Origin: Alphaproteobacteria bacterium
Lineage (GTDB): Bacteria; Pseudomonadota; Alphaproteobacteria; Sphingomonadales; Emcibacteraceae
Assembly (NCBI GenBank): GCA_030428615.1
Contig: JAUIDN010000002.1
Span: 248,001-312,000 of the forward strand
Direction: 5' to 3'
Length of the DNA: 64,000 nt
Part shown: positions 4,413-58,145 of the stretch, piece by piece
Numbering within the stretch: the first letter of the stretch is position 1
Layout of the letters: each line of letters starts with the position of its first letter
Translations under genes and position numbers: made by a program
The notes under the pieces: model-generated
What the model saw: the letters and a program-made list of their open reading frames with translations, nothing else
Databases searched by the model: none
What the model was told of the DNA's origin: nothing

Positions 4413-5831
4413 TTAGGTGCTAAACACCCTTTCAAGATGCAAAATATCTTCTTCCAGAACGCTGTCGGTTTGGCGGAGTTCTTCAATTCGTTTTACCGCA
4501 TGCATGACTGTTGTGTGATCACGACCACCAAATTTACGTCCTATTGATGGCAGCGATTTGGACGTCAGATGTTTACACAAATACATGGCCACCTGACGGG
4601 GTCGAGCAACCTGACGCGCGCGCCTTGCTGATAAAAGGTCGGAAAGCTTGATATTAAAATAATCCGCAACCTGTCTCTGTATTTCGTCAACCGTCACCCG
4701 ACGATCATTGGCCCGCAAAAGATCCTGGAGAACTTCCTGTGTCATATCAAGGGTAATGGGACGCCCTATAAGTGTCGAATGCGCAACCATTCTGTTAAAG
4801 GCTCCTTCCAGCTCACGAACGTTGGAACTTATTCTCCGCGCCAGAAACTCCAGCACTTCACTTTGAATTTCAACCTCCGGCACATGGTTTGCCTTTTGCT
4901 GCAAAATACCAAGCCGGAGTTCATAATCCGTCGGATGTATATCCGCAACAAGACCCCATCCCAGTCTTGACCGGATCCGCTCTTCAACCCCGTCCAGATT
5001 AGACGGGGAACGGTCCGCCGACAATATGACCTGACGATGATGATCAATCAGCGCATTAAATGTATGGAAAAATTCTTCCTGTGTTGAGTTTTTATTGGCG
5101 ATAAACTGCAGGTCATCAATCATAAGCAGATCCACATTACGGAACTTCTGTTTAAATGCCATTGTATCCTTATAGCGGATCGAGGAAATAAACTGATACA
5201 TAAACTGTTCGGCGGACAAATACACAACCTTACGTTCCGGAAAATATTCACGGTTAGCCCAGGCAATCGCATGCATTAAATGTGTTTTACCGAGTCCTAC
5301 CCCCCCATGAAGAAAAAGGGGATTAAAGTTCACATCCTTGTTTTCTGCAACGCGCCTTGCCGCTGCGTAGGCGAGTTCATTTGATTTACCAACCACAAAA
5401 CTGTCGAATGTGAAGCGAGGGTCAAGCGGCGCGCCAAACTGGTCGTCGCTTATGATTTTAATTTGCTCTGTTGTCTTCGCTTGCGATGTTTTCCCCGCCG
5501 TATCGGTCGTCTTTATGTTGGTTGGCGCTTCATTATCAGCACCCTGAAAACCGGAAAGCACTACAATGTCGATTTCTTTTACCCCTGCATTTACCTTCTG
5601 CCACGCTGCTTTAATGCGGTCCGCAAAATTGGACATCAGCCAGTTTCGCATAAACCGTGTCGGGGCCGCCATCACGGCACATCCGTCCTGTAGATTGATT
5701 AAAGCCAGAGGCTTTATCCAGCTTTTATAGGTATTTTCATCTAAATCAGCCCGTAGCTGACCAAGAACGCTCTCCCACTGCATATCCATGGTGTTGTCGA
5801 TCACCACTTCATTCGCCCTATTTCGACCCAT
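4413..5831 (-). CDS. dnaA: Chromosomal replication initiator DnaA
   Basis: AAA+ initiator that binds DnaA boxes and melts oriC. The 472 residues carry all four domains: an N-terminal DnaB/HobA-type interaction domain (WESVLGQLRADLDENTYKSW), a variable linker rich in Thr/Lys near 100-130, the AAA+ core with Walker A GGVGLGKTH near 175-185 and Walker B LLMIDDLQFI near 238, and domain IV with the DnaA signature GGRDHTTVMHAVKRIEEL close to the C-terminus. The chosen ATG at 5831 has a weak AGGT upstream; Met16 or Met18 could also serve. A rhodanese gene lies 36 bp upstream on the same strand and may share its promoter. Confidence 0.98.
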   Translation of the reverse strand: MGRNRANEVVIDNTMDMQWESVLGQLRADLDENTYKSWIKPLALINLQDGCAVMAAPTRFMRNWLMSNFADRIKAAWQKVNAGVKEIDIVVLSGFQGADNEAPTNIKTTDTAGKTSQAKTTEQIKIISDDQFGAPLDPRFTFDSFVVGKSNELAYAAARRVAENKDVNFNPLFLHGGVGLGKTHLMHAIAWANREYFPERKVVYLSAEQFMYQFISSIRYKDTMAFKQKFRNVDLLMIDDLQFIANKNSTQEEFFHTFNALIDHHRQVILSADRSPSNLDGVEERIRSRLGWGLVADIHPTDYELRLGILQQKANHVPEVEIQSEVLEFLARRISSNVRELEGAFNRMVAHSTLIGRPITLDMTQEVLQDLLRANDRRVTVDEIQRQVADYFNIKLSDLLSARRARQVARPRQVAMYLCKHLTSKSLPSIGRKFGGRDHTTVMHAVKRIEELRQTDSVLEEDILHLERVFST

Positions 5832-5867
5832 TTTAATCGTTACCTAATTTGTGCTTCACGTTTAACC

Positions 5868-48828: not shown

Positions 48829-51800
48829 ATGAGCGTAGTGGAAAATTTGAATCAAGAACGTCGCATTACATTTTGTCTATATGAATATTGGGAAAAACTT
48901 GCTGGTGAAAACAGCCTGCCCGCGCTCAAGGATATGAACCGCGAGGAAATTGCCCCCTTCAAGAAAAATCTTGTCCTGCTTGATTTAAGAAATGGTCAGG
49001 ATCGGCCAACTTTTCAGGTGATCGGACAGGAGCTTCAGGAAGACCTTGAGGCAGACCTTTCCAATATGCCCGTCAGCAGTGTGCCGCGAAGAACAATGTT
49101 GAGCCGCATTACGGATCATTATCAGGAAGTTCTTGCCAACCGCGTCCCGATCGCATTTGAGGCCGAATTTGTCAATCGCGACGGCGAAAAAGCCCTTTAT
49201 CGGGGAATATTACTGCCCTTCAGTGATGACAACAAAAACATCAATTTTATCCTTGGTGGTGTCCGCTGGATTCTTGAAAAAGACGTTACTCTGGATGACG
49301 GCAAGCCAACTATCGAAGAGCTTATGAAAAACATCGCTGCCGGGCGCGAAGACAAGACCGGCGTTTCATTGGAAGAACAACCTGATCCTGAGACGGCCGC
49401 TGAAGACCCCCTGGAGGAAGAGATTGTCGCAGAAGAAGTTGGTTTCAACGAAGACAACATTGATGCTGAACTGGTCTTTGAAGATGAAGGTGAAGATGAT
49501 GACGTTCAAGTGCAAGAGGACGTGCCAGATGACGTTCGAAGTGACGAAGAACAGATTCAGGAAGACGGCAAACATGACGTAGACCCATCGGTAGAGCGGC
49601 CTGATGAAGTAGATATATCGAAAGCAACAATTGAGGAACTTCTTCAATCCGCCGAGCAGGATGATGAAATCGGCGACGAATACCCCGTACTGACAAACGA
49701 GGACACGTTTCCTGAGACCGGGAATGTTGCCCGGGATCCCGAGGAGGCCCCGGAGGCTGAAAATTTCGAGGTTGAAGAAGAAAATATCCAAGAAGTCGAA
49801 ATGGATATGGCCGAAGTGGAAATTACAGAAAGCACAGATGCCATAGAAGACACCCAACAGGACATATCGGCCAATGAAGTGACATCGGATTTTGCAGAAG
49901 TTTTAGCAGAAGAAGACGAAAATCAAAATGAATTTAATATAGCGGAAGCGAACTCCAAAGAAGATATTTCAGGAAATAGTGCCGATGATGAAGCAGATGC
50001 ACCCGTCACAGAGGAGCCCGCTATCGAAGGGACTGCCGAAGGGGCAACGCCGCTTTCCGTCGATGAGGATAACAATCCAAAATTAAAGCACAAAATTTTT
50101 ATTCCCGATCCTTCCGCCTACCCGGAGAAGGGGACAAAACAGTCATTAGAAGAAGTAAGTGAACTTGAGACCGCAGAAGACGAACTGATTTTGGACGAGA
50201 TTGCGCCGATAGATCCAGTAGATGAGGAAGTAGAAACAGAAAAAGATCTCTCAAGCAGTGAAACATCCTCAACCGAAGATGACATCTCACTGGAAGAAGC
50301 GTCGGAGGAAGAGGTTGAAGAAGATGTTGAAATGGTGCTTGTTGACCAGCTTACACAAGATGAGATCGTAGAAGCTGATATTTCTGACCCTATAGAGGAT
50401 GTTCTTCAGCCAGACGAAGCAATAGAAGCATCTTCAGATGTTGAGGAAGGCACACCGTCCTTCGGTGACATAGTCGAACAGGAGCTCACCCGTGAGAATT
50501 ATCCCGAAGCTGAATCCAAGAATGAAGACCTATCCGTCGGTGTTGATGACACTGGTACAACGCCGGAAGACTCTCTGGAACTTGCTGAAGAAATAGCAGA
50601 AGAAAATGCGGACGCGCTCCTAGCAAATGAGCTTTTGGAAGAAAACAAAATACCTGAACCCGAACAGTCAATTAGCGAAGACGACAAAGAAGATGTGTCG
50701 GACGCAATAGATGAAGGGGATATCGTTTTTGAGGATGAGACATCAGAAGACCTTATAATCGAAGTAAGCGAAGAACCGGAAATGGTCGTCACACCCGGCC
50801 CGCAAGAGGCCGGTGACGATGTTAATTTGGAATTATCCCCCGAGCCCGAAGACTATGAAACAGACGTAGCGACAGAAGACGCACCGGATGAGTATGTGGA
50901 TGAACATCTGGAAGAAACCGACGAAACGTCGACAGAAGATAACATCAGAAGCCGCGTGAAAGACGATGATGATGATCTTTCGATCGAGGAATTGATGCAA
51001 AGCATCATTTCTGAAAGAAAATTTGATCTAGCCTATCAGCGTGAACAACAAGCAAAAGAAAAACTTGCCGAGAAAAACGAAAAACAAGATTTAGACATAG
51101 CGGAAACCGGTAACGAAGAAATAGAAAGCCCGGAAGATTCTGTTTCTGATGATTTGATTGATGCCGAACCGGCTACAGAAGATTTGGCGGACGAAGTATC
51201 TGACGGACTTGAAAATGAAGAGCCCGAAGAATTAGCCGCAACCCACGCAGACACCCACGGTGTTGAGACTGACGATGTTGAGGAACCCGTGGAGGAATTT
51301 CACGAGCTGTCAGAGCCTTTCAAATCGGAAGATGAAAATATTGAATTGGCTGAAGACCTTTCCATTGATGAGACTCACAGTGATTCGGAACCCTCGAATT
51401 ACGTGGAAGAATTGGATGCCGCCCCCACCGAATTCGCTTCCGATGAAGAAGACTATTCAGAAACGTCGAGGGAAATGGAGCGCGAAGAGCATGAAGGTGA
51501 TGGCGAAAAAGAGACTGCAGTATCCTTTGAAAGCGTTGAAGTGGATGATGACGTTCATAATATAGACGTAGAAGTCAGTGAAGACGTGGATCTGGACGTC
51601 TTTATGGAGCGTGAGCTGGCCGAAACAAACGAAGATTTAACCTTTGAAGATGAAACACCGGTTCAGCAGCCGGATGAACCGGCCGCTGCACATCCGGAAG
51701 AAGTAAAGGAAGATAGCGATGATGAAGTCCCGGAAGGGGCAGAATTTGAAACGCCGAATTATCAGGATTCAGCTGATCGCGTCGAACAAACCGAAGAAAG

Positions 51801-53268
51801 CGATATTGCCGAAGATCTACCGACCGAAATTTCTGGTGATGTAATCATTTCAAAGGACGACACAATAGAAGATAAAGATGTCGAGGCGGGATCACCCGAC
51901 AAACAAATAGGTAATACCCCCGAAACATCAGAGCCTTCCCCCGCGGACGCAAAAGTCGTTATGAATCCTCTGGCTGAACGGGAGAAAACAAAAAAAAGAG
52001 GCAGCGTGATCGAGAGGGCCATGGCGTTAATGGCACCGGGGTTTGGCCGAAAACAAGTAATTGAAGATGATGCGCCTATTGCCGGAAACATTGATGACAT
52101 TGGAATTGGTCTTTCGAGTGCAGAACCCGAGCTTGGCAATACCGGTGCCCCTTTAACGGAAGAAACACACCACAACGAAGGCTTCATAGTCGGCAGTGCT
52201 GAAAATGAAGAGCGTGACATTGAAAAACCTGAAGCTTCACTGGATGAAACAGAAGTACTTGAGCCTGAAAAGAAAGGTGAACCAAATACACGTGAGGACA
52301 AAGCGAAGGAGATATCATCAGATGTCGAGGCTGTAGAAGACGAAGAATCGACACAAGAACTTGAAATAACAGATGATGATATTTTCATGGAAACAGAGAA
52401 TATCACATCATTCGAAGACGATATCGTGAACGAATTAGTTGGTCCGGAACAAAAAACATCTCCAGAAACAGACGAAACACAAGATCATCAGGAAGAGGAT
52501 GCGAGACCCTCTGATGCAAACGAAACAGCAACCGCTACCGAAGTTGAAGAAGCCCCTGTTGCAGATGCCGAAGAGAGTGAGGCAATAACGGAGCCCGACA
52601 CCACCGATTATGAACAATCCCTTAAGGAGTTGCAGGAAACCCATAAGCAGATCGTTGGCTATATCAAAAAAGAAGACGCCAACCACAACCGAAGCCGTGA
52701 TTCCCTCTATAATATTCTGACTGCAATTTATGAGTTCCACGAAACATGCGAACGATCACCGGAAGCGTATCATGCATTGGTAGAAGAAGCGGACCTTAAA
52801 ATTCAAAGCAGGGCTCCATTTACACCGATGTTGAAAATATGCCTCGGCAAGGATTATGACAAAACACGGCTTACGGAATATTCGGCGGCCCTTGGGATCG
52901 CCCGTTATATGGATGTGGCCGTCAGCGAATTCCATGATTTTATAAAGAATTTCCCTGGCGGGATTAAGGGCTGCGTAAAAGAAATGCGAGTCATCCGAAA
53001 GCACGGTGCGTCCGGGAATGTCATGGCACGAAAAACCAAGTCCGTGGAAGAAGCACGGGAAATCCTTCGTGAGATGGCCCCAATAGTCAGTTTCCGGTTA
53101 AAAAAAGTGATCGTCGGAAACAACATAGACGAATTTTGCTTATTGCTCGCGAAACGTGATGGTCATGATATCAATGTGCTGAAAATACTTGATGAAAAGT
53201 ACACAAAAATAGACCCTATTTTAAAACGGGCCGCTTTTATCAAGGGCAATCTAAATGGTCGTAAATAA
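48829..53268 (+). CDS. Giant acidic PAS-domain protein with PopZ-like motifs, function unknown
   Basis: The protein has 1479 residues. Residues about 10-145 form a PAS_5-type domain (YEYWEKLAGENSLPALKDMN, LVLLDLRNGQDRPTFQVIG, FILGGVRWIL). Residues about 150-1259 are overwhelmingly Glu/Asp with Ser, Thr, Pro, Val and Ala, and are presumably disordered. Three short helical motifs punctuate this stretch: TIEELMKNI (161-169), TIEELLQSA (267-275) and SIEELMQSII (718-727). They resemble the SMEEILASI-type N-terminal helix of PopZ/DUF2497 proteins. A basic island with AEREKTKKRGSVIERAMALM lies near 1048-1067. Residues 1260-1479 are a folded, helical, mildly basic domain (SRDSLYNILTAIYEFHE, YDKTRLTEYSAALGIARYMD, FPGGIKGCVKEMRVIRKHG) of no recognised family. 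The reading frame is intact and followed by glutamate dehydrogenase 74 bp on. A scaffold or condensate-forming role is an inference from architecture only. Confidence 0.85.
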   Translation: MSVVENLNQERRITFCLYEYWEKLAGENSLPALKDMNREEIAPFKKNLVLLDLRNGQDRPTFQVIGQELQEDLEADLSNMPVSSVPRRTMLSRITDHYQEVLANRVPIAFEAEFVNRDGEKALYRGILLPFSDDNKNINFILGGVRWILEKDVTLDDGKPTIEELMKNIAAGREDKTGVSLEEQPDPETAAEDPLEEEIVAEEVGFNEDNIDAELVFEDEGEDDDVQVQEDVPDDVRSDEEQIQEDGKHDVDPSVERPDEVDISKATIEELLQSAEQDDEIGDEYPVLTNEDTFPETGNVARDPEEAPEAENFEVEEENIQEVEMDMAEVEITESTDAIEDTQQDISANEVTSDFAEVLAEEDENQNEFNIAEANSKEDISGNSADDEADAPVTEEPAIEGTAEGATPLSVDEDNNPKLKHKIFIPDPSAYPEKGTKQSLEEVSELETAEDELILDEIAPIDPVDEEVETEKDLSSSETSSTEDDISLEEASEEEVEEDVEMVLVDQLTQDEIVEADISDPIEDVLQPDEAIEASSDVEEGTPSFGDIVEQELTRENYPEAESKNEDLSVGVDDTGTTPEDSLELAEEIAEENADALLANELLEENKIPEPEQSISEDDKEDVSDAIDEGDIVFEDETSEDLIIEVSEEPEMVVTPGPQEAGDDVNLELSPEPEDYETDVATEDAPDEYVDEHLEETDETSTEDNIRSRVKDDDDDLSIEELMQSIISERKFDLAYQREQQAKEKLAEKNEKQDLDIAETGNEEIESPEDSVSDDLIDAEPATEDLADEVSDGLENEEPEELAATHADTHGVETDDVEEPVEEFHELSEPFKSEDENIELAEDLSIDETHSDSEPSNYVEELDAAPTEFASDEEDYSETSREMEREEHEGDGEKETAVSFESVEVDDDVHNIDVEVSEDVDLDVFMERELAETNEDLTFEDETPVQQPDEPAAAHPEEVKEDSDDEVPEGAEFETPNYQDSADRVEQTEESDIAEDLPTEISGDVIISKDDTIEDKDVEAGSPDKQIGNTPETSEPSPADAKVVMNPLAEREKTKKRGSVIERAMALMAPGFGRKQVIEDDAPIAGNIDDIGIGLSSAEPELGNTGAPLTEETHHNEGFIVGSAENEERDIEKPEASLDETEVLEPEKKGEPNTREDKAKEISSDVEAVEDEESTQELEITDDDIFMETENITSFEDDIVNELVGPEQKTSPETDETQDHQEEDARPSDANETATATEVEEAPVADAEESEAITEPDTTDYEQSLKELQETHKQIVGYIKKEDANHNRSRDSLYNILTAIYEFHETCERSPEAYHALVEEADLKIQSRAPFTPMLKICLGKDYDKTRLTEYSAALGIARYMDVAVSEFHDFIKNFPGGIKGCVKEMRVIRKHGASGNVMARKTKSVEEAREILREMAPIVSFRLKKVIVGNNIDEFCLLLAKRDGHDINVLKILDEKYTKIDPILKRAAFIKGNLNGRK

Positions 53269-53342: not shown

Positions 53343-56300
53343 GTGAGCAGCTGGTCTCAAAAAGAAATTCGCCTCGATTCCATCATTGACTATACAAAAG
53401 AAAATATGAAGTCTTCGCTTGGGGCGGGATTTGTCGAGTTTGTAACCAATTTTTATAAAAATGCCTCTCCTGAAGATTTAAGCCTCAGGTTAGACGAACT
53501 TTACGCTATCGCTTTAAGCAACTGGAAATTTATCGCAGAATATAATCAGCCGCGATCAAAAATACGCATATTTAACCCCACACTTGAAGAACATGGCTGG
53601 ACATCATCGCACACCATTATCCAGATCCTGACGAAAGATATGCCGTTCTTAATTGATTCGATTACTTCGAACCTGCTTGAGGATGGAAACACACTTCATA
53701 TGCTTATTCATCCCGTGCTCCGGAACACAAGAGATGACAATGGAAAAATAACCGCTAAGGGCGGAAAGAAAATAGCCGAATCGGTGATGCATATTGAAAT
53801 CACCGCCATGAGCAATCAGGAAGAAATAAATGCACTTAGTGACAAACTTAAACAAGTCACTGATTTCATCCATGATTCCGTTGAGGACTGGAAACCAATT
53901 CTCAAAAAGGTAGAAGAAACATCAAAGAATCTTGATCTCGCACCTAAATCTGTCTCACGTACCGAGGTCAAGGAAAGTCAGGCCTTCCTTAAATGGTTAA
54001 CCGAAAACAATTTTACGTTTCTAGGCTACAGGGAATATGACCATTCCAACCAAAAGAAGCCAACCACCGGAAAGGGATATGGCATTCTAAGGAACCCTGA
54101 GATTCATGTTCTGCGCGGCCCGGACGGGCTTGTCGCGATTTCCCCGGAAATCGAGGACTTCATGGCTCAGGATAAAATCATGCTGATCACCAAGGCCAAT
54201 GTCAAATCGATGGTGCATCGGGTGGTGCATCTTGACTATGTCGGTTTCAAAAAATTCGATAAAGCCGGAAAAGTGATAAGCGAAACCCGGTTCGTCGGTC
54301 TGTTCACATCAGACAGTTATAATGAGCGCGCACAAAATATTCCTTATCTTGACCGTAAGGTTAAATCCGTGGTTGAACGTTCAGGCTTCAATTATAACAG
54401 CCACAACGGTAAAGCACTTTTCCACATTTTGGAAACGCTGCCCAGGGATGAGCTATTTCAAATAGAAGAAGAGCCGCTTTTTCAAACGTCCATCGGCATC
54501 CTTCATCTTAACCTGCGCCCGCAATGCAGGGCATTCGTTCGTAAAGACAAATTTGAAAGATTTGTATCCGCCCTCGTATTTGTACCAAGGGATCTTTATA
54601 ATTCCATATTGCGGTCAAAAATCGAAAAAATTCTTTGCGAAGAATTTAACGGTGAATTGTCGTCCCGCTATGCACAGCTCAGCAATGAAAGAATTGCCCG
54701 CTGGCACTTTATTATTAGGACGAAACCAGGACAAGTCCGAAACCCGGCCCCTGAAGCAATCAATGACCGCATTTCCAAGGTTGCACAGAGCTGGACCGAT
54801 TATTTTCATGAAGTTCTTGTTGATCGTCACGGTGAAGAAACCGCAACGCAGCTTTACCGCAAATATGCCAAATCATTCTTGTCCGCTTATCAGGAAAATT
54901 TTGACCCGCGCTTTGCCGCGATCGATGTGGATAAGCTTGAGCAATTACCGACAAATAATAATATCGGGTTTAATTTTTACCGTCATCCAGAAGATGCCGA
55001 CCATGTTGTCCGTCTGAAAATATACACCAGCCGCAATACCATCGCGCTCAGCGATTGTTTGCCAATGCTTGAAAATATGGGCCTTCGCGTTATTGAGGAA
55101 TATGCCTTTGAGGTTATTACCGAAGAAAAAGAAGAAAAAATTGTCCATAGTATTCATGATTTCTATCTGGAAGATCCGTCAGGAAAAACTTTTGAATTAA
55201 GTGTTTTAAAAGATCAAATGGAACAGGCCCTGATTGCCGTCTGGCAAAATTCTGTTGATAATGACGGTTTCAACAAATTGGTCCTTAAGGCTCACATGAC
55301 ATATAAGCATGCGCTTATATTAAGAATTTACAGCAAATATCTACGCCAGCTGGGCAGCTCATATAGTGAAACTTATATGCAGGATACGCTCACCCAATAT
55401 GTTGATGTGTCGAAATTGCTCGCTGAGCTATTCGAAATTAAATTCTCGCTTGAAGTCACCGATGATGTTGACCGCAAAGCGGAAGAAGACAAAATTATCA
55501 AAAATATCAATTCACTGCTTTCACAGGTAGACAGCCTTGATCAGGACCGGATGCTTCGCAATTATCTGAACGTGATCAGCAGTTCGCTACGTACAAACTT
55601 CTATCAGCATGATGCTTCAGGGAAAGAAAAACCATATATTTCGATCAAGATAAAAAGTGCCGATGTTGAAGAAGCCCCCAAACCAAGACCATATGCGGAG
55701 ATATTTGTCTATTCACCGCGGTTCGAAGGTGTGCATCTGCGCTCCGGTCCGGTGGCGCGCGGCGGCTTGAGGTGGTCTGACAGAAAAGAAGATTACCGCA
55801 CGGAAATTCTTGGTCTGGTGAAAGCGCAGCAGGTAAAAAATACGGTTATTGTGCCCGTCGGGGCCAAGGGCGGTTTTGTACCAAAGCAGATGCCCGCCAA
55901 CCCAAGCCGTGAAGAATTTCTTGAGGAAGGCATCAATTGCTATAAATCCTTTATTTCAGGCCTGCTTGACATTACCGACAACCTGAAAGAAGGAAATGTT
56001 ATCCCGCCAAAAGATGTTATCCGGCAGGACGGCGACGATCCGTACCTTGTCGTGGCAGCGGATAAAGGAACGGCCACTTTTTCTGATATTGCAAACGGAC
56101 TTGCGCATGACTATGGGTTCTGGCTTGATGATGCGTTCGCATCCGGCGGATCCGTCGGCTATGACCATAAGAAAATGGGCATTACTGCGCGTGGCGCCTG
56201 GGTCAGTGTACAACGCCATTTTCGTGAGCATGGCATTGATGTGCAAAAAGACAATATAACCGTTGCCGGTATCGGCGATATGTCAGGGGATGTTTTTGGC

Positions 56301-58145
56301 AACGGGCTTCTTTGCTCGGAAGCGGTTAAACTTGTCGCCGCCTTTGACCACCGCGATATTTTCATTGACCCCGACCCCGACCCCGCCAAATCATATGCGG
56401 AACGAAAACGTATGTTTGATCTGCCGCGGTCAAGTTGGGAAGACTATAATAAAAAGCTGATTTCCAAAGGCGGGGGTGTTTTCAGCCGTAGCCTGAAATC
56501 GATTGGTCTGACGCCGGAAATAAAAGAATTGTTTGGTTTTGAAGAAGACGTCAAGACGACCACACCAAACGACCTTATTCGTACGATCCTTAAATCACAT
56601 GTTGACCTTTTATGGTTTGGTGGCATTGGGACCTATGTTAAATCGGAATCTGAAAGTAATCTAGCGGTCGGGGACCGTGCCAATGATGCGATCCGCATCA
56701 ATGGTAAGGAACTTAACTGCAAGGTGGTCGGCGAAGGTGGAAACCTTGGCTGTACGCAGCTGGGCCGAATTGAATATTGTCTGAAGGGCGGTATGATGAA
56801 CACCGATGCTGTGGACAATTCGGCGGGTGTTGATTGTTCTGATAATGAAGTAAACATCAAAATTCTGCTCAATAGCATTGTCGCCGAAGGTAAAATGACG
56901 AAAAAGCAACGGGATGCCCTCCTGGAAGCAATGACCGACGATGTTGCCGAAATTGTTTTACGGGACAATTATTTACAGACGCAGGCAATCAGTCTTGCAA
57001 AAACAAGCAGTATTCGCCAGCTCGATAGTTTCGAACGTTATCTCGACGAACTGGAGAAGTCCGCAAACCTTGATCGCGAGCTTGAATTTCTTCCGAACGA
57101 TGAAGAGCTTCTTGAACGAGGGGAAAAATCCCTCGGTCTGACACGACCGGAAAATTCCGTCCTTATTGCTTACGCAAAAATGTCCCTGTTTGACAGTTTG
57201 ATGGAAAGTAATATTCTCGATGATCCTTATCTCGAAAAATTCCTGTTCAAGTCTTTCCCCAAAAGATTGAGCGAAAAATACAAAAAGGAAATGAGAAATC
57301 ATCAGCTCAGGAAACAGATTATTGCAAAAGTCCTGTGTAACGATATTGTCAACCGCGGCGGCATTCAAGCCATCAAGGAAGAAACCGGTGCAAGCGGTGC
57401 AGAGATTGCCAGGGCCGCCATCATCGCAAGCGAAGTATTCGAGCTTGACAATCTCTGGGATCAAATCGAAAAGCTTGATTATATTGCCCCCGCGACTATT
57501 CAAATTCTGATGTTGATGGATGTTGAGGAATTTGCCCGCCGTCAAACCATCTGGTTTTTGAATAATACCGACAGCAAGCAGCCAATACAGAAAATTATTG
57601 ATAATTATAAACCCGGCATTACCGAGCTGTTCCTGATGAATACTGTTGTTGAAACAGTGTCGGAAGAAAGTATCTCCAGTAAGAAAAATATGTATTTGGA
57701 ACAGAATGTCGATGAAGCGCTGGCGCAGCATATCGCGAGCCTTGATATTAAAACAGCCGCTTGTGATATGGTGCAGGTTGCCAAGGAACTAAATCTTGAT
57801 GTCACTCAGGTGGCCGCGGCTTACTTTATGTTTGGTGAAGAGCTTGGTTTTGACTGGCTCAGAAGTCAGGCGGAAATGGTTGAAACAGGCGACCATTGGG
57901 ATCGTCTGGCGGTAAACAGCATATTAGGCGATCTTCAGGACCAGCAAAAAATCCTGACCCGTAGCGCCCTGAATGGCTGCAAGGATAAAGATTGTCTTAT
58001 TTCCGCCGAAAAATGGATAGCCGATAATAAATCCGCTACGGAGCGCGTCCGGAAATTGCTACAGGATTTCCAGAATGCCGGAAACCTGAATGTCACAAAA
58101 ATGGGCTTTGCAGCACGACAAATCCGGAATGTGATTGTAGATTAG
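53343..58145 (+). CDS. NAD-specific glutamate dehydrogenase, 180-kDa class
   Basis: Converts glutamate and NAD+ to 2-oxoglutarate and ammonia. The 1600-residue length identifies the large L-GDH180 class. The N-terminal half carries ACT-like regulatory regions (TKDMPFLIDSITSNLLEDG near 100; VTEEKEEKIVHSIHDFYLED near 590). The catalytic half has GPVARGGLRWSDRKEDYRTE, VPVGAKGGFVPKQMP with the catalytic Lys near 838, VAADKGTATFSDIAN, and the NAD-binding GIGDMSGDVFGNG. The start is GTG at 53343 with an AGAAGGA ribosome site. It reads in the same direction as the giant acidic gene and selO. Confidence 0.96.
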   Translation: MSSWSQKEIRLDSIIDYTKENMKSSLGAGFVEFVTNFYKNASPEDLSLRLDELYAIALSNWKFIAEYNQPRSKIRIFNPTLEEHGWTSSHTIIQILTKDMPFLIDSITSNLLEDGNTLHMLIHPVLRNTRDDNGKITAKGGKKIAESVMHIEITAMSNQEEINALSDKLKQVTDFIHDSVEDWKPILKKVEETSKNLDLAPKSVSRTEVKESQAFLKWLTENNFTFLGYREYDHSNQKKPTTGKGYGILRNPEIHVLRGPDGLVAISPEIEDFMAQDKIMLITKANVKSMVHRVVHLDYVGFKKFDKAGKVISETRFVGLFTSDSYNERAQNIPYLDRKVKSVVERSGFNYNSHNGKALFHILETLPRDELFQIEEEPLFQTSIGILHLNLRPQCRAFVRKDKFERFVSALVFVPRDLYNSILRSKIEKILCEEFNGELSSRYAQLSNERIARWHFIIRTKPGQVRNPAPEAINDRISKVAQSWTDYFHEVLVDRHGEETATQLYRKYAKSFLSAYQENFDPRFAAIDVDKLEQLPTNNNIGFNFYRHPEDADHVVRLKIYTSRNTIALSDCLPMLENMGLRVIEEYAFEVITEEKEEKIVHSIHDFYLEDPSGKTFELSVLKDQMEQALIAVWQNSVDNDGFNKLVLKAHMTYKHALILRIYSKYLRQLGSSYSETYMQDTLTQYVDVSKLLAELFEIKFSLEVTDDVDRKAEEDKIIKNINSLLSQVDSLDQDRMLRNYLNVISSSLRTNFYQHDASGKEKPYISIKIKSADVEEAPKPRPYAEIFVYSPRFEGVHLRSGPVARGGLRWSDRKEDYRTEILGLVKAQQVKNTVIVPVGAKGGFVPKQMPANPSREEFLEEGINCYKSFISGLLDITDNLKEGNVIPPKDVIRQDGDDPYLVVAADKGTATFSDIANGLAHDYGFWLDDAFASGGSVGYDHKKMGITARGAWVSVQRHFREHGIDVQKDNITVAGIGDMSGDVFGNGLLCSEAVKLVAAFDHRDIFIDPDPDPAKSYAERKRMFDLPRSSWEDYNKKLISKGGGVFSRSLKSIGLTPEIKELFGFEEDVKTTTPNDLIRTILKSHVDLLWFGGIGTYVKSESESNLAVGDRANDAIRINGKELNCKVVGEGGNLGCTQLGRIEYCLKGGMMNTDAVDNSAGVDCSDNEVNIKILLNSIVAEGKMTKKQRDALLEAMTDDVAEIVLRDNYLQTQAISLAKTSSIRQLDSFERYLDELEKSANLDRELEFLPNDEELLERGEKSLGLTRPENSVLIAYAKMSLFDSLMESNILDDPYLEKFLFKSFPKRLSEKYKKEMRNHQLRKQIIAKVLCNDIVNRGGIQAIKEETGASGAEIARAAIIASEVFELDNLWDQIEKLDYIAPATIQILMLMDVEEFARRQTIWFLNNTDSKQPIQKIIDNYKPGITELFLMNTVVETVSEESISSKKNMYLEQNVDEALAQHIASLDIKTAACDMVQVAKELNLDVTQVAAAYFMFGEELGFDWLRSQAEMVETGDHWDRLAVNSILGDLQDQQKILTRSALNGCKDKDCLISAEKWIADNKSATERVRKLLQDFQNAGNLNVTKMGFAARQIRNVIVD

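Follow-up and report, generated by a model that had tools for sequence, protein, structure and literature searches.

What a bacterium gains from a protein of 1479 residues, three-quarters of which form a single acidic and presumably disordered stretch, is the question raised by one gene in a 64,000-nucleotide stretch of DNA (the window) from an alphaproteobacterium assigned to the Emcibacteraceae (GenBank assembly GCA_030428615.1, contig JAUIDN010000002.1, positions 248,001 to 312,000). An earlier note, made from the sequence of the window, had likened this protein to PopZ scaled up tenfold and joined to a sensory PAS domain, and had proposed that it could be a sensor-controlled scaffold or condensate. 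The analysis reported here places it elsewhere. The window protein is an extreme member of a conserved family built from a PAS_5-like head, an acidic linker and a C-terminal domain (C-domain); this family is real, conserved and apparently undescribed. On the best reading it belongs with the PAS proteins, as one whose acidic linker has expanded and whose gene adjoins that of a NAD-dependent glutamate dehydrogenase (GDH), and it is not a PopZ.

The protein and its family

The frame translates into 1479 residues without a stop, and since four other genomes of the genus hold comparable open frames (1025, 1138, 1422 and at least 1495 residues, the last ending with its contig), the giant size is no accident of assembly. 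The head passes the PAS_5 cut-off (29.3 against 22 bits), and this is the sole Pfam match in the protein. The linker comprises 1110 residues, among them 391 Asp or Glu (35 %), 58 Lys or Arg and 64 Pro (5.8 %), with Trp and Cys absent and a net charge of -0.30 per residue. By the charge-hydropathy line, which is a crude measure of disorder, it falls far on the disordered side (-0.362) save for one stretch at about residues 1043-1091 that falls on the ordered side; the corresponding values are +0.068 for the PAS domain and +0.074 for the C-domain. On the intact frame, the PAS_5 head and the roughly 1100 acidic, presumably disordered residues, the earlier note was thus borne out, as it was on the distance to dnaA, given as about 45 kb and found to be about 43 kb (dnaA, recognized by its ATP-binding motif, lies at 4413-5843 on the minus strand).

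Searching with the last 148 residues turned up six loci in metagenome-assembled genome records labelled Emcibacteraceae, Kordiimonadaceae or Alphaproteobacteria, and matched 51 of 60 related genomes, fragments among them. The profile of 40 C-domains is present in 355 of the 396 genomes of the host order (337 of the 373 of good quality), 11 of the 355 matching at E above 1e-6 only, and in 8 of the 337 genomes of a class-wide sample, five of these 8 being from the same order. Family definition rests on the C-domain alignment A2 (40 sequences) together with a head alignment (44 sequences). The head-linker-C-domain layout aligns in 45 loci with wider flanks, except the fragment L079, and the window protein carries the PAS_5-like head as well as the RAPxTPxxKLxFGxxYDKTRxTEYA and GGIKGCV blocks of the C-domain. 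The usual member has about 400-700 residues: frames of 360-450 residues occur in 25 of 37 members outside the genus, and seven further frames, from the group f6, have 549-732. Members above 1000 residues belong, among the matches listed, to the genus of the window protein only; two open frames of f6 listed at 1023 and 1053 residues (G641/L131 and G500/L132) came to 549 and 665 when read, and giant linkers in that group were accordingly rejected. Among the papers listed from open-licence PMC text, judged by title and the start of the abstract, there was none on this family or on a pairing of PAS protein and GDH.

It is the linker that varies. With boundaries set by a crude rule, its length spans 0 to 1209 residues across the family, four members having none by that rule; it is 57-270 residues in five f6 members, and within the genus it runs from 133 residues up to 1209, or from 40 if one counts a doubtful value that comes from a frame interrupted by an assembly gap. 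All 13 measured linkers of at least 100 residues, from several families, are acidic, with 21-42 % Asp and Glu. Tandem duplications at offsets of 46-97 residues were found in 4 of 10 linkers tested (L002, L003, L007 and L059), and therefore account in part for linker growth; they were absent from the other six, that of the window protein included. With constant end domains and a linker of 0 to about 1200 residues, the family offers a natural series on the role of disordered length in bacterial signalling proteins.

The C-domain is nearly order-wide. Across 40 sequences it has 18 invariant columns (R28, L31, Y32, Q64, R66, A67, T70, K74, G78, K83, T84, R85, T87, E88, G116, K118, V121 and R125), of which seven are Lys or Arg and one is acidic, a bias with a Fisher p of 0.02 relative to the composition of the domain itself. 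An AlphaFold model of residues 1258-1479, made with six sequences, predicts a mostly helical domain, with block-mean pLDDT of 74-93 over the first 130 residues and at most 53 thereafter. Of the earlier description as a folded basic domain, the folded part accords with these helices, while the basic part is weaker than implied, the counts being 38 Lys or Arg against 30 Asp or Glu. Pfam and NCBIfam gave nothing convincing over the C-domain of the window protein, six C-domains reached E of only 0.06 and 0.1 at best against Pfam and PHROGs, and four further relatives found nothing in Pfam under E 0.075. Foldseek found no match to the model in the PDB under E 0.86, and VIA-align gave as its best hit a TetR-type protein (Z 6.1, rmsd 3.7, 98 residues aligned); a Z of 6.1 is in the common range for helical models, and no clear structural relative emerged.

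The glutamate dehydrogenase neighbour

A GDH gene of the PF05088 type stands directly downstream, on the same strand, at 40 of 44 assessable loci, with a median gap of 76.5 nt; the count takes the 45 loci with wide flanks minus one gene that runs off its contig, and excludes the window. Three matching genomes (G025, G028 and G031) fall outside the wide-flank set, and L044 and L045 are near duplicates. The 74-nt gap in the window has no terminator-like site. Identity of the neighbouring GDH is 77-85 % within the genus and falls to 32 % beyond it, which argues that the arrangement is old. An apparently undescribed and nearly order-wide domain has a strong genomic link to GDH, which in Caulobacter is connected with cell division, according to the available extracts on its GdhZ. 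GdhZ, a NAD-dependent GDH, is to be compared with the downstream neighbour and not with the window protein; PF05088 also matches in the Caulobacter control genome, and the GdhZ literature, so far as those extracts go, mentions no PAS partner.

The explanation favoured here, at a probability of roughly 0.45, is that of an order-wide, two-domain signalling or tether protein that works with the large GDH encoded downstream. The two genes would be co-transcribed. The PAS_5-like head would act as the sensor of a cue, and the C-domain, through its invariant basic residues, would bind a target, either GDH or an anionic ligand or polymer. Between them the acidic linker may act as a flexible, repulsive spacer that keeps the two ends apart and bears short binding peptides. 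In the genus this spacer would have been lengthened in some members to more than 1000 residues, partly through tandem duplication, and one to three IEELM peptide sites would have been gained, which could dock a helix-binding receptor.

Several observations weigh against this explanation. At four of the 44 loci, all from f6, the gene lies away from GDH (a fifth f6 locus adjoins it), the genomes concerned still encoding GDH elsewhere. In G182, a genome from outside the order with a completeness of 93 %, the gene is present in the form of two overlapping frames but PF05088 matches nothing; the reverse is seen in five f7 genomes and one from f2 (G050), which encode GDH and give no match to the C-domain. 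Within the genus, G002 has lost the gene, of which a 31-residue C-domain scrap with two stops is left in the 355 bases before GDH. Gene and GDH are found without each other, and therefore neither requires the other. G011 holds only a fragment of the gene, with stops, on the contig of its GDH; G004 and G005 could not be assessed, their GDH frames being short (1492 and 1295 residues) and probably cut by contig ends. Sensing, moreover, need not be common to the family, since of 10 members outside the genus three pass the PAS_5 cut-off, four score below it and three have no match, even though all still align with the head. A profile search of PDB sequences with the C-domain found none at E of 5 or below, hence no solved sequence relative, and adjacency by itself is no proof of interaction.

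Linker peptides and the comparison with PopZ

The earlier note had drawn its analogy from three IEEL motifs, and these do begin at residues 161, 267 and 718. When ungapped 14-mers of the window linker were compared with eight linkers of the genus, using the third-highest of 40 shuffles as the threshold, four main conserved islands passed (M1, M3, M4 and M5; Table 1), together with a marginal one at residues 304-317 (1 of 8 comparisons), and most of the linker gave no match above shuffles. M1, which holds the first motif, is found by pattern in all nine genus members and in 0 of 37 others, one of these being a fragment without head. M3, which holds the third, exceeded the threshold in L002, L003 and L007 at their own M3 and in L005, L006 and L060 via their M1, while the M3 of L004 stayed below it. 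Over 20 codons of M3, comparison with three orthologues gave 9, 9 and 11 synonymous differences against 1 nonsynonymous, so the peptide itself is kept by purifying selection. A 30-residue M3 query, which is insensitive, found only itself in its own genome. The second copy has no counterpart by pattern in the other eight genus members; M5-like strings were seen by eye in three more of them (L002, L004 and L007). Copies 1 and 3 thus exceed chance, being kept in the genus where most of the linker gives nothing above shuffles; the conservation claimed for the motifs extends neither to copy 2 nor to orthologues outside the genus. In several f6 members a different helix, DELLLEIDQAL, occupies the M1 position, which suggests that this site is a clade-variable post-PAS helix. 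Structure prediction for head plus M1 was poor (mean pLDDT 56.7) and drew M1 as a helix at 162-171 with low confidence.

Membership in PopZ was rejected. The window protein has no match to PF10691 (DUF2497) at E of 1 or below, and the search for a canonical popZ that the note had recommended returned one of about 211 residues, with the N-terminus EPSMEEILASIRRIISEDD, as the only genome-wide match to that family; 38 of 40 relatives likewise have a popZ, and the C-domain profile aligned to nine PopZ C-termini with an hhalign probability of 0.2. The proposed enlargement of PopZ architecture also overlooked the main context, an order-wide family encoded upstream of GDH, and the interpretation in the note is supported only in part. 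The IEELM helices, although situated away from the N-terminus, do resemble as profiles the client-binding helix at the N-terminus of PopZ (of the EPSMEEILASIRRII type). The combined M1/M3 profile reached an hhalign probability of 77.4 against PopZ N-termini (86.9 with 27 PopZ rows), M1 alone 88 and M3 alone 75; 200 column shuffles all fell short (the highest reached 15.9, where 22.0 was observed), and permutation of column order against a PopZ score matrix gave p values of 0.00035 (M1) and 0.006 (M3). In a small natural control of six IEEL segments, three of them own copies, the three unrelated ones scored 9.5-12.7 and family copies 14.3-25.2, with shuffled profiles up to 15.9. Two family copies, that of M3 in L004 and that of M1 in L006, rank on both scores above all 277,518 background windows, which came from all open frames of at least 250 residues and not from vetted genes. 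The window protein's own copies, however, are equalled by 117 and 245 of those windows, do no better than shuffled linker (p 0.49 for M1) and singly reach hhalign probabilities of 37 and 19. The proposed resemblance to PopZ is thus seen in the family profiles and only weakly in these single copies, and the IEELM motif was chosen by eye before the PopZ tests. A function shared with the PopZ helix is possible from the sequences, common descent is unproven, and the motif provides a testable case of a PopZ-type helix outside PopZ whose use could be shared or convergent.

These results bear on the rival explanation that comes closest to the original proposal, a sensor-controlled polar hub in which the IEELM helices would mimic the PopZ N-terminus, the linker would tune a condensate and the C-domain would assemble or anchor it, possibly bringing GDH to the pole. 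It has on its side the profile match, beyond column shuffles and permutations, the two top-scoring copies, a linker charge near the -0.28 per residue of PopZ (PMC9512792, as excerpted) and the example of MopJ, a PAS_5 cell-cycle regulator that is polar and, in the excerpt of PMC4432633, needs PopZ for its location. It is nevertheless unlikely, given how unexceptional the window protein's copies are and that M1 may be a plain PAS output helix, replaced in several f6 members. DUF2497 was not detected, popZ is in the genome anyway, and proline makes up 6 % of the linker against 23-29 % in PopZ in the available extracts. In PopZ, linker length and charge tune condensates; when the linker was doubled, the condensates became more fluid and their two-phase window grew narrower (PMC9512792, as excerpted); by analogy, a linker more than 10 times the 78 residues given there for Caulobacter PopZ would be expected to oppose, not favour, dense assembly. 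Likeness to PopZ/DUF2497 lies in a short helix motif, at profile level, and an acidic, presumably disordered spacer of similar charge density; the PAS head is among the differences, and a PopZ-like scaffold or condensate role is a minority hypothesis, possible and unproven. MopJ is itself only a distant comparison: residues 15-143 match it weakly (NCBIfam NF051868, E 0.13) through the PAS_5 domain common to both, at 12.1 bits where the equivalog cut-off is 200, and the Caulobacter protein, in the extract seen, is 165 residues of PAS_5 alone, in contrast to 1479 residues and a second domain. An even bolder proposal would make the protein a metabolic-to-polarity connector, a PAS-controlled tether whose C-domain sits on GDH while duplicated PopZ-like helices on a long acidic brush attract clients of PopZ, such as the ClpXP adaptor CpdR. 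Glutamate breakdown would in this way be linked with the cell-cycle hub; GDH would be brought to the pole, or the protein would compete with PopZ for clients. The behaviour of MopJ and the binding of CpdR to the N-terminal hub of PopZ (PMC11519897, as excerpted) make a cell-cycle link plausible, and the connector as a whole is a long shot.

The C-domain and the linker invite two further explanations. In one, the protein would be a regulator binding nucleic acid or a phosphometabolite, the invariant basic residues of the C-domain gripping the anion while the acidic linker bends back and inhibits electrostatically until the PAS domain releases it. The excess of basic over acidic residues among the invariant columns, the acidity of every longer linker measured and the weak likeness to TetR-type helical domains agree with this, but such Z values are frequent among helical models, the profile scans made matched no DNA-binding family, and four members are without a linker by the boundary rule; the idea is accordingly judged improbable. 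The other takes the giant linker for neutral bloat, a tolerated and partly repeat-driven expansion with length as its sole function. The spread of lengths in one genus, with the reservation already made for its lowest value, and the tandem duplications would fit, whereas the islands persist, codon changes in M3 are overwhelmingly synonymous and five genomes keep frames of 3-4.5 kb free of stops, and this explanation is accordingly rated quite improbable. The tether working with GDH is left as the preferred reading.

Coordinates and smaller observations

Table 1. Features of the gene and its neighbour, numbered from the first letter of the window
Feature	Positions	Strand	Basis or remark
Whole gene	48829..53268	+	1479 aa; three-part layout as in the rows below, shared by orthologues
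PAS_5 domain, residues 16-143	48874..49257	+	Pfam PF07310, E 8.6e-7
Acidic, presumably disordered linker, residues 153-1262	49285..52614	+	Composition and charge-hydropathy
Island M1, residues 153-177, TIEELM post-PAS helix	49285..49359	+	Above threshold in 8/8 comparisons
IEEL copy 2, residue 267, not conserved	49627..49644	+	Pattern search
Island M3, residues 711-741, DDDLSIEELMQSIISERKFD	50959..51051	+	Pattern in 5/9 genus members
Basic island M4, residues 1050-1074, KKRGSVIERAMALMAP	51976..52050	+	Above threshold in 3/8 genus comparisons
Island M5, residues 1188-1207, SFEDDIVNELV	52390..52449	+	Above threshold in 2/8 genus comparisons
C-terminal domain, residues 1263-1479	52615..53265	+	40-sequence alignment; order-wide; undescribed
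NAD-dependent GDH (PF05088)	53343..58145	+	74 nt downstream; conserved neighbour

The genome of the window protein encodes two more short PAS_5 proteins (L008 and L010, frames of 153 and 152 residues), possible MopJ-like paralogues. Some of the seven f6 frames (L131-L137) have, by eye, recurring linker peptides of their own that are unlike those of the genus, for example GYSFASLADYIEAP and DELLLEIDQAL. The scrap left in G002 derives from the C-domain tail and lies at L078:6653-7007, between GDH and a gene named by eye as NhaC-like. Searches of plasmid records with one C-domain and with the L117 protein described below found no relatives, and a search of phage records with one C-domain likewise found none. 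That protein is a distant relative of the C-domain (E 1.9e-11) encoded in a genome outside the order, at L117:1165-2058, in a 297-residue frame without a Pfam match that adjoins frames named by eye as integrase-like and IrrE-like.

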